A DNA stretch of 64,000 nucleotides from Clostridia bacterium (GTDB taxonomy: Bacteria; Bacillota; Clostridia; UMGS1883; UMGS1540): NCBI GenBank assembly GCA_017442155.1, contig JAFSAU010000036.1:1-64000 (forward strand), given 5' to 3'. A program made the translations under genes and the position numbers. Position 1 is the first letter of the stretch; each line of letters opens with the position of its first letter. Below the pieces are notes generated by a model. That model made no database searches. It was not told the origin of the DNA and saw only the letters and a program-made list of their open reading frames with translations. Shown in pieces: positions 1 to 5,429 of the stretch.

Positions 1-3000
1 AGCGGATTTTTGCCGGAGGTACCGGTCATTACATAGTTGTATTCATCATCATAGCCTACAATCTGACCGGTATAATCCTTATCGGTCGTTGCGGTGGGGG
101 CACCGGAGAGACCGTCGCCCAGTGCAACGCTAAAGGAATAGAAGATGTATACGGTTGCTTCGCCCGCTTCGGCGGGGGTAGCGTCAATGGTGTTTGCGGC
201 CCAGCCGGTGTCAACGGTGGCTTCGGTCACTTTGAATGCACCGGAATAATCGTCGGGGGTGTCGGACTTTGCAGTAAAGGAAAGCTGCTTTACAACCTTG
301 CCGTCCACCTTGTCAGCACCGTAGATCTTAAAGCGAAGCGTGTTTTCATCCACAGCCTCCACGCTACTGCTGTTTTGGTTCCAGGTAAACAGCTTATTGT
401 CATAGTCCATAGTGACTTCTGCCACGTTCCAGGGAGCATCACCATGGAGGTCCTCGATAGAAACCTCAACAAGGAAGCTGCCCTTGGGGTCAATCTTTAT
501 AGCGTTTTCGCCGGAAACCTTAGTGCCGCCAACGGGGGTGAGCACGGTTTTGAAGCCGTAATCCTCTTCTGATACCCAAACGGCTGTGTAAGTCGTGGGT
601 GCATAGGCCTGCTTCTGCACTTCCTTGTCCCAGCCCCGGAAAATGTGACCGTCTCTGGAAAAGTCGGTCGGAGCATTGATTTCTTCGCCGTAGTTCAGAA
701 TAAAGGATTCACTTACGTATCCATCCGCATTTGTGCCGCCGCCGAAGTCAAATGTAATCAGCACCTGACCCTCTGACGGTTCATCGTATACACGATACAG
801 TGTATCATCATTCACATCTGCGATGTTATTGTAAAGCAGGATGTCACGGCTTGCAGTTTCATTTGCCGCAATAGCCGACTTTGCAGCCTCAAGTGCTTTG
901 GCAAAGTCAAAATAATCCACGTCGTTATATTTAGCTACATAAGTGCTGATTTCTTTCTGAACGCTAACGCCTTCGCCTATTGCATTTACTTTATAAGTAA
1001 GTCCGGCCACGGTACCGCTTTCATTGATTGTGTTGCCGGTTGCAGTCGCCTTCAGGCTCTCTTTGTCTGTGTAAGACGTAATAGAGAGATTGGAATCATT
1101 GAGTGTGTTGCCGGTAAATACAATTTCTCCGGATGCGCTTAAAACAACCGAACTACCGTTAAAAGTACAGCCGGTTACGGTCACTTTCTTAACATCCGTT
1201 CCTCGCTCGTTATCGCCAATGGTGCGACGTGACCAATTTATAAATTCACATTTATTGATTGAGACTTCAACATCATCAATTACCGCAGTTGCACCTTCGC
1301 CATAAACAATAGCCACGGGTTTTGTCGCATTGGGATTGCCTATAAAAGTACAATTATCTACAGTAAGGTTTGAAGAAGCAGAAATAGCGCGTGTCCAGAT
1401 AGAACTGTGCGTTGCTCCGCTCATATCTATTATTAAATTTTTGAACGTCACCGGAGCGGTCGCACGAAAAGCAGCTGTGTAATTATTTCTGTCGAATATT
1501 TCACAGGCAAATTTTATTGTATATTTGTTCTCACCGCCATCAATGGTACATGGAACATCAATGTCAAGGTCTGTATCATTTGGGTTAGTGTTCCACTTTT
1601 CTGTAATCGTAACATTATCTAAAAGGGTAAGGGTTTCATTTTCTCCAAGTGCACTCAAGGCTTCTGCAAAGTCGGCGAAAAATTTGTCATCGCCTATTTT
1701 GGCAACGGCCAGCACAACAACACCAATTCCGTTTTCGTCAACTTTCACTGTGAGTTCTTTGTCGCTTTCGTTTATAACATTTACTGTTCCGCTGAAGCCT
1801 GATAAATCAAGATTTGTTGACTGCGAGCCGGATGTATAATCAAATTCTGTAGCGTCAATTACCAGTGTTCCGTTACCGGTAATAGCTGATGCACTTAAAC
1901 TATTGTTTAAGCCAATAGTGAGCGTGCCGCCTTCTTCTATGTGGATTACATCAGCACTTACGCCGGCTGTTTGTCTTGCTGCTGTAAGCGTTTCGTTATC
2001 GATTGTTAAACTTCCTTTGCGCGTAATGGTAAGGTCACCAACCCGAAGCGTTGCATTTTCAATAGTTGTTTTTCCGGTTATATTGATTGTGGCTTCTTCT
2101 TCAATAATCATAGCAGACCCGTTTTTCATGGTAAGATTCTGCAGTGTTACCGGCTCCACTGTGGTGCCTTCTGCTTCGTCATCCAGAACAATGGTGGAAT
2201 TATCCATCGTAAGGTTGTTGAAAATATTTCCCGTTGTGCTGTAGTAGGTCGGTTCATTCATAAAATTGTGGCCTTTTACAGTCATAGATGAATCTGTCAT
2301 TGTTTGTTTATACCACGTGTTTTTGCCGAAGGCCACAATACCCTTAACATACAGTTCTGAATCGTTAATGGTAGCAGCGCCTGTAAAGCCTAAATCTGCC
2401 ACTTTAATAATGGCGTTGTTTGCAATGAGCTTACCATTATAGAGCACCGCAATGCTCATATCCTGATAACTTCCTTTATGGAAGTCGATTACGGCCTTTT
2501 TCTCTGCACCTGCCGCACCTACGGTTAGCGTGTTTTTAATATGGCTGTTTCCGATACCTGCACTTGTGGGTCTTGCCGACGGTACTCTTCCGCCCGGCTC
2601 CACGGTGACAGGATATGTCATGTCCCACTTACTGAGTGCATTACCACATTCCGCACCATCCTGCACAACGACCGCCAGCTTCGAGCAATTTTTATGATTG
2701 TTATCGAATGTATTGCCCGATAAGCTGCTGTTTTTTTCAATGATTATCGTTGCGTTTTTTGAATTTACAGAAGCATAGGCGTATGCACTGGCATAGTTTG
2801 CGAAATGGGTCTCGCCCCAGCCTTCGGTTTCGGAGGTATAATCTGAATTGACGTAAAGAGTAGGTAATGTTGCCAGTAATTGCACGGCCGCTTCGTCAGC
2901 CGGTTCCTCCGTCATTTCAACTTCTGTTTGTTCGGGTGCTTCTTCGGAAATTGCAGCAGCTTCGTCTTCTGCAAATACGAAGGTTCCCATCATGCTCATC

Positions 3001-3047
3001 ATCATAGCTATTGCCAGAATAGAGCATAGAAATTTTTTAAAATTCAT
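1..3047 (-). CDS. Large secreted beta-helix/InlB-repeat surface protein (3' part missing)
   Basis: The leftward frame is open from the ATG at 3047 to the window edge, over 1015 codons, so the C-terminus and any anchor are off-window. An AAGAAGGA ribosome site precedes the start. Residues 1 to about 26 form a signal peptide (MNFKKF then a hydrophobic stretch, ending near VFAE), followed by an acidic stretch rich in Glu/Ala. Residues about 80-740 are Asn/Thr/Gly-rich short strands with recurrent phrases such as TFIGN, TFNGS, NLTMDN and ATINIT, typical of right-handed parallel beta-helix proteins. Residues about 760-820 resemble an InlB B-repeat (FDFGGGTN... HIFRGWD... YTAVWV), and about 830-1000 look like a cohesin-type or Ig-like sandwich. 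It is probably an adhesin or polysaccharide-binding surface protein; the ligand is unknown. Its only visible promoter is within the invertible segment at 3199-3468, so expression is probably on/off. Confidence 0.85.
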   Translation of the reverse strand, partial: MNFKKFLCSILAIAMMMSMMGTFVFAEDEAAAISEEAPEQTEVEMTEEPADEAAVQLLATLPTLYVNSDYTSETEGWGETHFANYASAYAYASVNSKNATIIIEKNSSLSGNTFDNNHKNCSKLAVVVQDGAECGNALSKWDMTYPVTVEPGGRVPSARPTSAGIGNSHIKNTLTVGAAGAEKKAVIDFHKGSYQDMSIAVLYNGKLIANNAIIKVADLGFTGAATINDSELYVKGIVAFGKNTWYKQTMTDSSMTVKGHNFMNEPTYYSTTGNIFNNLTMDNSTIVLDDEAEGTTVEPVTLQNLTMKNGSAMIIEEEATINITGKTTIENATLRVGDLTITRKGSLTIDNETLTAARQTAGVSADVIHIEEGGTLTIGLNNSLSASAITGNGTLVIDATEFDYTSGSQSTNLDLSGFSGTVNVINESDKELTVKVDENGIGVVVLAVAKIGDDKFFADFAEALSALGENETLTLLDNVTITEKWNTNPNDTDLDIDVPCTIDGGENKYTIKFACEIFDRNNYTAAFRATAPVTFKNLIIDMSGATHSSIWTRAISASSNLTVDNCTFIGNPNATKPVAIVYGEGATAVIDDVEVSINKCEFINWSRRTIGDNERGTDVKKVTVTGCTFNGSSVVLSASGEIVFTGNTLNDSNLSITSYTDKESLKATATGNTINESGTVAGLTYKVNAIGEGVSVQKEISTYVAKYNDVDYFDFAKALEAAKSAIAANETASRDILLYNNIADVNDDTLYRVYDEPSEGQVLITFDFGGGTNADGYVSESFILNYGEEINAPTDFSRDGHIFRGWDKEVQKQAYAPTTYTAVWVSEEDYGFKTVLTPVGGTKVSGENAIKIDPKGSFLVEVSIEDLHGDAPWNVAEVTMDYDNKLFTWNQNSSSVEAVDENTLRFKIYGADKVDGKVVKQLSFTAKSDTPDDYSGAFKVTEATVDTGWAANTIDATPAEAGEATVYIFYSFSVALGDGLSGAPTATTDKDYTGQIVGYDDEYNYVMTGTSGKNP

Positions 3048-3198
3048 TTTTGTCCTTCTTTCTTTATAGTTGTACATATTCGGGAAAATCCGTTTCCCTC
3101 CGGGCGAAGAAATTGTTTTTCTACTGCTGCTTCTTCGCTGAAAACGCAGTGCTTACGTTCACCTCCGGTTGCTTACTGTTGTTTTGGCTGCGTTTCCA

Positions 3199-3218
3199 AC
3201 ATAATCGAAATTATGTGG
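3199..3218 (+). repeat. Left inverted repeat of the inversion switch
   Basis: The 20 bases at 3199-3218 are the exact reverse complement of 3449-3468 (CCACATAATTTCGATTATGT). The repeat is itself nearly palindromic around a TTCG centre. It lies between the surface-protein gene and its promoter. Confidence 0.85.
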
Positions 3219-3254
3219 GAAAAGATTACAGTACATAATACTGTTTGTTCGTTT

Positions 3255-3283
3255 AGTATAGCATCTTTTATGGCTTTTGTCAA
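3255..3283 (-). promoter_or_regulatory. Sigma-A promoter inside the invertible segment
   Basis: On the minus strand, TTGACA (3283-3278), a 17-base spacer and TATACT (3260-3255). Transcription would start near 3248, leaving an untranslated leader of about 200 bases before the surface-protein ATG at 3047. Confidence 0.85.
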
Positions 3284-3448
3284 CAAAATACGGTGATTTT
3301 TCCCTAAAATCAGCATAATGCAAAAAAATAGACATGCCAAAATAGACCGATTGAACAAAATTCATAGCTTTCGGTCTTGTTTTTGTGCCTGATTTCAGAC
3401 GCGAGAAAAAGATAAGAAATTTTTTAACGCTCAATTCGGAACGATATA

Positions 3449-3468
3449 CCACATAATTTCGATTATGT
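3449..3468 (+). repeat. Right inverted repeat of the inversion switch
   Basis: Perfect inverted partner of 3199-3218. This copy extends to a full palindrome, CCACATAAT-TTCG-ATTATGTGG (3449-3470). Confidence 0.85.
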
Positions 3469-3483
3469 GGTTTTTATTTTTTA
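3449..3483 (+). terminator. Rho-independent terminator formed by the right inverted repeat
   Basis: A 9-bp stem closed by a TTCG tetraloop (3449-3470) is followed by a T-rich run (3471-3482) on the plus strand. No rightward gene ends here. It would stop rightward transcription from the inverted (OFF) promoter before it runs antisense into the recombinase gene. Confidence 0.6.
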
Positions 3484-4317
3484 CAGCCGTAAAAGTCCGA
3501 GCTTTTGTATCTGTCGCCGGTGGACATCGCCTGTTTCCATCGTATAAATGCGGGTTGTGTTTATGCTGGAATGGCCGAGAATGTCGGCAAGGCGCACAAT
3601 ATCCTTCTGTACTGAATAATAGGTTCGCGCGAATAAATGCCGGAGGTTGTGCGGAAACACCTTTGTTTTGTCTACCCCTGCATCATGGCACAGGGATTTC
3701 ATCATTTTCCATATTGTGCTTCTGTCAAGCGGTTTGCCAGTTTTTGTGATAAAAACGGGTCCGCTTTTTATTTTTTGTCTCTGCGCATACTCCGATAGCA
3801 TTTTACAAAGTTCCTTTGGCAGAATAACAGTGCGCATTTTTCCTTTACATTGAATAATAGCTTTGCGGGCGCGTACAGCCTCGGCAGTAATGGCTTTTAC
3901 CTCCGACACCCGGATGCCGCTTGCACAAATTGTCTGCATCAGATAATAAAGTCTTTCGTTTTTTCTGTTCTTTGCCGCGGTGAGCAGATTCTGGTATTCC
4001 GCTTTGGAAAGCTCCTTGGTGCGGTCGGCAAAAATAGGCTTCTGAATTTTCAGCAGTTTAACCTTGAGCTTATGCCAGTTGCAAAACGTAAAAAAACTGT
4101 TAAGAGAGGATAAAATGGAGTTCACAGAAGCCGGAGCATACTTTGCATTTAAATGCGCCTTGTATTGGAGTACTGTCACTTTGTCAACCGTATGTCCGGC
4201 GAGCCATACATGAAAAGCTGTTACGTCGCGTATATACTTTTCAAGCGTTGCAGGGGATTTTTCTTCCTCGATTAAATGTTGTTTAAAGCTTGTAATACGT
4301 TTTTCTGTCAGTGTCAT
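3481..4317 (-). CDS. Tyrosine recombinase, probable promoter invertase
   Basis: A 278-residue integrase of the lambda-Int/XerC fold, intact. The N-terminal SAM-like core-binding domain is residues about 1-90. The catalytic domain (about 100-278) shows the full active-site set: Arg136 in SGIRVSE, Lys158/160 in CKGK, His223 and Arg226 in HNLRH, His249 in LGHSS and the nucleophile Tyr258 in TRIYTM. The length suits the small stand-alone invertases rather than phage integrases. The start at 4317 is supported by AAAGGA about 12 bases upstream. It lies beside the 20-bp inverted repeats at 3199 and 3449 with no phage or transposon genes nearby, so inversion of that segment is its likely job. Its own promoter is not clear; the upstream 4330-4360 is AT-rich. 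Confidence 0.85.
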   Translation of the reverse strand: MTLTEKRITSFKQHLIEEEKSPATLEKYIRDVTAFHVWLAGHTVDKVTVLQYKAHLNAKYAPASVNSILSSLNSFFTFCNWHKLKVKLLKIQKPIFADRTKELSKAEYQNLLTAAKNRKNERLYYLMQTICASGIRVSEVKAITAEAVRARKAIIQCKGKMRTVILPKELCKMLSEYAQRQKIKSGPVFITKTGKPLDRSTIWKMMKSLCHDAGVDKTKVFPHNLRHLFARTYYSVQKDIVRLADILGHSSINTTRIYTMETGDVHRRQIQKLGLLRL

Positions 4318-5391: not shown

Positions 5392-5429
5392 AAAAGCCCG
5401 ATTGTGTTTACATCGCAGTCGGGCTTTTT
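5392..5429 (+). terminator. Terminator after the 4534 gene
   Basis: AAAAGCCCGA and TCGGGCTTTTT arms pair over about 10 bp and end in a T run, 4 bases past the stop codon. Confidence 0.85.

Follow-up and report, generated by a model that had tools for sequence, protein, structure and literature searches.

In any promoter switch that lies beside its own recombinase gene, the promoter in its OFF orientation reads into the gene of the enzyme. The locus described here raises the question whether a crossover site can itself prevent this, i.e. whether one short palindrome serves the recombinase as a substrate on the DNA level and RNA polymerase as a stop signal.

Layout of the switch

The window, i.e. 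the whole stretch of 64,000 nucleotides that was analyzed, is the start of one contig of a gut Clostridia genome of 2.43 Mb assembled in 51 contigs. On the minus strand, the order is recombinase gene, right recombination site, a 230-bp segment, left site, and a gene for a surface-type protein (start at 3047). The features are as follows.

3..3047, minus strand: regulated gene, encoding an exported surface-type protein; 1015 codons before the contig breaks off
3199..3218, plus strand: left (distal) recombination site; core 3199-3216 ACATAA-TCGAAA-TTATGT; outer flank without T run
3219..3448, no strand: putative invertible segment between both repeats, delimited by the repeat pair and known in both orientations from related segments
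3255..3283, minus strand: predicted promoter TTGACA-17-TATACT, based only on an 11/12 consensus match; points left toward the surface-protein gene (ON)
3448..3471, plus strand: putative terminator hairpin, formed by the right site and flanking bases (terminator scan, fold, and census)
3449..3468, plus strand: right (proximal) recombination site; core 3451-3468 ACATAA-TTTCGA-TTATGT
3471..3482, plus strand: U-tract TTTTTATTTTTT, outside the invertible segment, its last two bases within the recombinase stop codon
3481..4317, minus strand: tyrosine recombinase gene, 278 aa, with Phage_integrase (PF00589) and SAM-like N-terminal domains; XerA/XerD-like

The inverted repeats (3199-3218 and 3449-3468) comprise 20 bp each, are 100% complementary (20/20) and lie 230 nt apart, so that the element including both repeats measures 270 bp. 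Since the promoter lies on the minus strand (3283-3255) and is directed at the surface gene, the assembled sequence is, judged from this promoter match, the ON state, with a predicted transcription start at about 3248. The surface-type protein has a signal-peptide-like N terminus and one Listeria-Bacteroides repeat. In the 2.43-Mb genome the 18-base site pattern occurs at these two places only (backwards control 0), and a search of the same genome for a second copy of the element found none; three distant recombinase genes (L003-L005) encoded there all lack sites. ON is the only orientation seen in the source species, of which one genome was compared. The element displays the hallmarks of an invertible promoter, namely perfect inverted repeats, an internal promoter and a linked tyrosine recombinase, and both orientations are found, the latter in relatives.

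The recombinase matches PF00589 with an E value of 4e-28. NCBIfam models assign it to the XerA/XerD-like recombinases with scores below the curated cut-offs, and the nearest solved structures are XerC-like, XerA, and XerD. The protein contains GIRVSEV, HNLRH, LGHS, and RIYT, which we take to be the R, HxxR, H, and Y motifs, respectively. By these similarities the enzyme of the switch is a XerD-like tyrosine recombinase adjoining its own element.

The right site as a terminator-like hairpin

An earlier note on this DNA had described the right repeat as a palindrome with a TTCG loop followed by a T run outside the segment, and exactly this arrangement is seen at 3449-3482. The plus strand at 3449-3470 folds into CCACATAAT-TTCG-ATTATGTGG with -9.3 kcal/mol (z -4.3, equalled by 0/200 shuffles). 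The right repeat plus GG forms a hairpin of 9-10 bp, after which TTTTTATTTTTT follows at 3471-3482; the recombinase stop codon TAA, read on the other strand, takes up positions 3481-3483, i.e. the final two T of the run and the A behind them. A terminator scan delimits the hairpin to 3448-3471, with 10 pairs, three of them GC. As in an intrinsic terminator, the U-tract stands directly after the hairpin; the stem, with 2-3 GC pairs among 9-10, is not GC-rich as that of an intrinsic terminator would be, and the signal is for this reason terminator-like rather than a proven terminator. It is the sole hairpin in the 64 kb, on both strands, that combines a stem of at least 9 pairs with at least 10 T of 12, in a census of loops of 3-8 nt that leaves out long-loop terminators, e.g. 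the inverted repeat 5392-5428. Ten dinucleotide shuffles of one strand gave no hairpin passing the census criteria.

Reconstruction of the inverted state of the 270-bp element bears out that the 20-base repeat and its outer flank are unchanged by inversion, as the note had reasoned: hairpin and T run persist, with a folding energy of -9.7 kcal/mol (OFF, 9 pairs) vs -11.0 kcal/mol in the state seen. In the rebuilt sequence, the promoter points right, with a predicted start at about 3419, and meets the right-site hairpin. The predicted OFF RNA has a length of about 57-64 nt and is the same as the ON mRNA up to the end of the site (about 50 nt). The left repeat puts the same hairpin in the path of the ON transcript, followed there by the outer flank TGGAAACGCAGCC, which agrees with the earlier statement that it has no T run.

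Sampling of related elements

A recombinase search at E <= 1e-30 yielded matches in 45/196 related genomes, own genome included, and 48 loci were matched in the species-level collection. Removal of 15 duplicates from 121 loci left 106 distinct ones, from which loci without a site near the stop codon (18), broken loci (9), loci with the proximal site only (8), and one cut locus were excluded. The remaining 70 possess two inverted ACATAA-N6-TTATGT sites 3' of the recombinase stop; one (L072) was dropped for a run of N, giving 69 usable elements, window included. A later set, mostly of more distant members, started from 47 loci and comprises 21 elements after exclusion of 18 duplicates, seven loci without site, and one cut locus; L153 and L156, counted as site-less in this set, do show a site, which is either truncated where the contig ends or deviates too far to satisfy the rule. 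Family-level searches around G175, G374, and G096 covered 6, 16, and 4 genomes, respectively, and a second class-level draw around G175 gave no recombinase locus beyond those of the earlier searches. The loci G019:C82, G243:C4, G256:C14, G330:C42 at 8100, G330:C25, and G330:C6 were left out of sampling.

U-tracts were assessed with a single score and a single threshold (at least 4) within 6 nt of the site. The orientation of relatives was called from the better -35/-10 match, and elements with three sites, for which more than two states are conceivable, were scored on the outermost sites only.

A one-sided U-tract next to the recombinase gene

According to the earlier note, the U-tract should be restricted to the flank met by the OFF promoter, and the family upholds this. 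In 44/69 elements the proximal outer flank carries the tract, read antisense to the recombinase, compared with 0/69 at the distal outer, 1/69 at the proximal inner, and 1/69 at the distal inner flank, and 0/69 in the mirror control; the later set repeats the pattern more weakly (7/21 vs 2, 0, and 0 at the other flanks, mirror 0). The proximal score exceeds the distal one in 63/69 pairs (Wilcoxon p 2.7e-12, calculated on rows that are not phylogenetically independent). On the recombinase tree (69 rows; at a threshold of 3.5, 51 with and 18 without the tract) the U-tract changes 10 times vs 16.1 times after shuffling, with 0/500 shuffles as low, and the window falls into a supported clade of 11 recombinases whose 11 elements all carry it. 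Occurrence also differs with the distance between gene and site: where the site lies 6-18 nt after the recombinase stop, 43/51 elements have the tract, and where it overlaps the stop codon, 0/9. In these nine elements (L062, L031, L076, L081, L099-L101, L104, and L107; site at -5) the stop codon TAA is the TAA of the element's own site ACATAA. A strong U-tract is absent in 25/69 elements and in 14/21 of the later set. By these sequence comparisons, the feature is thus genuine and specific; it is most pronounced in the part of the family to which the window belongs, and it is not shared by all elements.

How this one-sidedness is best read can be judged against four alternatives. The A/T tract might be a DNA-level part of the site, involved in bending or in binding of the recombinase or a helper, with the terminator look as a by-product of the palindrome. 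Sites of tyrosine recombinases inherently consist of two inverted arms, so a hairpin comes free, and the T tract does adjoin the recombination site; a binding need would, however, be expected at both sites, whereas the tract occupies one of four half-site flanks (44/69 vs 0, 1, and 1). In addition, the T runs found beyond the distal site in 20/69 elements are displaced by 7-12 nt, often to the end of an extended stem, which fits an RNA signal and not a fixed footprint. We regard the DNA-level explanation as unlikely; a role of the tract in recombination only was rejected on its one-sided occurrence. A further alternative, that the A tract behind the stop codon is ordinary AT-rich intergenic DNA without a role, could draw on the composition of the invertible segments (36% A, 35% T), but the stretch from stop codon to site has an A content of 0.67 (51 loci, gap 6-18 nt) vs 0.37 after 193 other ORFs of the same loci, and mirror cases with T for A number 0/69. 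General A-richness after stop codons was rejected on this difference, and a tract without role is very improbable.

The right-site hairpin also lies directly 3' of the recombinase stop codon, where one would expect a bidirectional terminator or a signal for the 3' end of the recombinase mRNA. Transcripts in the recombinase direction, however, have TATATCG (ON) or GAAAAGAT (OFF) after the hairpin, not U, and a U-tract in this direction occurs in 1/69 elements; a terminator for the recombinase mRNA was rejected on that count, and we give this possibility as little weight as that of a tract without role. The terminated OFF RNA could, finally, act as a regulatory small RNA, identical to the ON leader over its first ~50 nt. 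The two RNAs coincide up to the end of the site by construction, and of all readings considered this one appears the most improbable. The preferred reading remains an intrinsic terminator directed against antisense transcription of the recombinase gene.

The hairpin loop and the evidence for inversion

The TTCG tetraloop that the note had emphasized is present in the window; it does not hold up as a conserved terminator part. When site pairs were chosen by their arms alone, the six central bases agreed in inverted register in 68/69 elements, and the 69 elements show 42 distinct centres, none of them self-complementary. Because the centres match in inverted register, vary between elements, and are never self-complementary, the pattern fits directional crossover by a tyrosine recombinase, and the hairpin loop is, by this sequence pattern, the crossover centre, free to vary. 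A special role of the TTCG loop was rejected in view of the 42 different centres.

The promoter match places 47 of the 69 elements in OFF and 20 in ON, with two undecided. Similar segments form 62 pairs, in 26 of which the partners align on opposite strands (e.g. L042/L045 with 82% over 215 bp and L017/L047 with 82% over 214 bp), and the segment of the window resembles those of L014, L043, and L045 on the opposite and of L017 and L036 on the same strand. Segment alignment and promoter call agree in 55/62 pairs. Five of the seven discordant pairs involve L044, whose call they contradict and which is therefore probably miscalled; its two promoter scores are near a tie (10.5 vs 10). Along the recombinase tree the orientation changes 17 times, compared with a shuffled mean of 17.3, i.e. 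without tree signal. As homologous segments occur in both orientations among relatives, inversion in the family is well supported by sequence comparison. A third or fourth site copy is located 32-45 bp from one end in L035, L041, L043, L060, L061, L069, L070, L018, L019, L023, and L086; such extra copies would permit more than two states or serve as an accessory site.

A predicted second terminator on the target side in relatives

Some relatives present a comparable signal at the other end. A T run lies 3-16 nt beyond the distal site in 20/69 elements, a pattern both spotted and counted in these same 69 elements (same-position controls: 3, 2, and 1). Of these 20, 14 have a more stable accompanying stem in OFF than in ON; the difference reaches 4 kcal/mol or more in 12, and one element shows the reverse, with medians of -15.4 (OFF) and -8.1 kcal/mol (ON) (Wilcoxon p 0.001, rows not independent). 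L037, for instance, reads GCCTGCG-site-CGCAGGC followed by T7 in OFF, and L042 and L022 have distal stems of 15-18 pairs. Inversion to ON carries the upstream arm of the distal stem to the other site. In the 47 elements without distal T run, six favour OFF and four ON by at least 4 kcal/mol. In the later set, 3/21 elements have the run, and OFF is more stable in two of these three. The window alone in its clade of 11 lacks it. The proximal hairpin favours OFF slightly (16 vs 3 by at least 2 kcal/mol, n = 43), which is not the case in the window. The distal second terminator predicted in 20/69 relatives would hence generally be completed only in OFF.

A more far-reaching reading would be a widespread class of Clostridia switches whose crossover sites double as intrinsic-terminator hairpins at each end. 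The recombinase-side hairpin would insulate the recombinase gene, and in a subset the OFF state would assemble a split target-side terminator of 14-18 bp against read-through from the recombinase gene into the target, which the ON state would dismantle. We put the chances of this generalization at about even. If it is true, one inversion switches the direction of a promoter and two terminators together.

Genes associated with related elements

A gene for a TetR-like regulator (185-198 aa) directly follows the distal site in numerous relatives, which mostly also have a distal terminator (L035, L037, L038, L041, L042, L045, L060, L070, L071, and others). Pfam TetR_N was found in 4/4 regulators tested, and several are followed by a surface-type gene; in the window, unlike in these relatives, the surface gene itself comes directly after the distal site. 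Some switches of the family seem to control defence-like genes encoding a CAP12/Pycsar-type TIR protein and ResIII-type helicases (L091:2-1312, minus strand; L046:4133-6826, plus strand; L093:1-1203, minus strand), which possibly points to phase-variable phage defence in some relatives. Other genes located after the switch, unusual as targets of promoter inversion, encode HSP70-like, SPFH/Band 7 with zinc ribbons, and YspA/SLOG proteins (L047:4031-5578, plus; L044:1318-2487, plus; L087:685-1176, minus). The frame after the switch in L062 (4117-5757) begins like that of an exported surface protein but matches serine recombinase domains in its middle and at its end, as would result from insertion of a mobile element into the switched gene. 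L078 harbors, at about 3000-4060, a 42-bp inverted repeat inside the recombinase gene and a second, inverted partial gene copy; it looks like a rearranged recombinase gene. Genome G127 encodes six recombinases of the family (L099-L101, L105, L108, and L110), with a paired-site element at four of them (L099, L100, L101, and L110).

Proposed mechanism

We consider it probable that the locus is a phase-variable promoter switch with its own XerD-like recombinase, in which the crossover site acts as an intrinsic terminator that insulates the recombinase gene. The recombinase would act on the two site copies (arms ACATAA/TTATGT, 6-bp centre) and thereby flip the segment with its promoter. RNA transcribed from a site would fold into a hairpin, given the inverted-repeat structure of the site. 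The copy next to the recombinase gene has a T tract as its unchanging outer flank, so that hairpin and U-tract together would constitute an intrinsic terminator that the promoter encounters only in its OFF orientation. In OFF, the RNA would presumably be stopped after about 60 nt. In ON, the same RNA start would pass the other copy, whose flank is of mixed sequence without U-tract, into the surface-protein gene. The advantage is probably that no antisense RNA of the recombinase gene would arise from a strong OFF promoter, which would leave the recombinase available for switching back. Termination, insulation, the effect on switching, and switching in the source species are all inferred here, and harm of antisense transcription to switching is assumed.

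The idea that one sequence serves as both site and terminator is supported by the geometry of the element and weakened in two respects: the AU-rich stem is only moderately stable (-9.7 kcal/mol in OFF), which counts against it, and a strong U-tract is not found throughout the family. Since the 25/69 elements without it include all nine whose site overlaps the stop codon, insulation would be common among these relatives and not needed everywhere. Some elements, as these nine suggest, may tolerate antisense transcripts of the recombinase gene. Elements with and without the tract offer a natural contrast, and the proposal gives a testable rule, namely an OFF RNA of about 60 nt whose first ~50 nt are identical to the ON leader. 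In such a switch the palindrome of a tyrosine recombinase would be reused as a stop signal and insulation would cost only a T tract, a compact design for synthetic memory switches.

Comparison with known systems

A close precedent is cwpV of Clostridioides difficile, inverted by RecV, for which the passages drawn on here describe a promoter outside the inverted region and an OFF terminator that silences the target gene (PMC2784873). Common to both are site-specific inversion in Clostridia, control of a surface protein, and a predicted intrinsic terminator at the junction of repeat and segment, in cwpV that of the OFF state; in contrast to cwpV, the promoter itself would flip here, the hairpin is the putative crossover site, and the terminator would face the recombinase gene (PMC2784873). 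In the window the promoter lies inside the segment, and an OFF-only terminator toward the target is absent. The distal terminators of the 20 relatives come closer to cwpV than the window, which has none (PMC2784873).

In fimS/fimE of Escherichia coli, the sense fimE mRNA is ended Rho-dependently in OFF, as described in part in PMC2784873 and PMC5386303. Both systems place an invertible promoter next to a recombinase gene and, by these partial accounts, have orientation-dependent termination nearby; unlike that of fimE, the signal of the window is a hairpin with U-tract, lies on the antisense strand, and is present in both orientations (PMC2784873, PMC5386303). One-orientation termination of the recombinase mRNA finds no counterpart here, with no U-tract in that direction in the window and 1/69 in the family. 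The cmr locus of C. difficile resembles the window as an invertible Clostridia promoter that is active in ON; it differs in that the excerpted description places no terminator at its repeats and that RecV acts on several loci (PMC8844915).

Inverton group 139 of the hCom2 survey, associated with tyrosine recombinase group 35, comprises 33 invertons, 32 of them from Clostridia, with inversions called by read mapping, according to the sections consulted (PMC11892184). The element is similar in its Clostridia origin and nearby tyrosine recombinase, a likeness drawn without comparison of repeat motifs (PMC11892184). In these sections of the survey, published in 2025, terminators come up solely as a subject for later study, in connection with motifs downstream of genes (PMC11892184). 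A search of open-access titles and abstract openings, with subscription papers and preprints outside its scope, found no crossover site that doubles as a recombinase-shielding terminator. Compared with cwpV and fimE, what appears to be new in this locus is that the crossover site itself would be the terminator that shields the recombinase gene.
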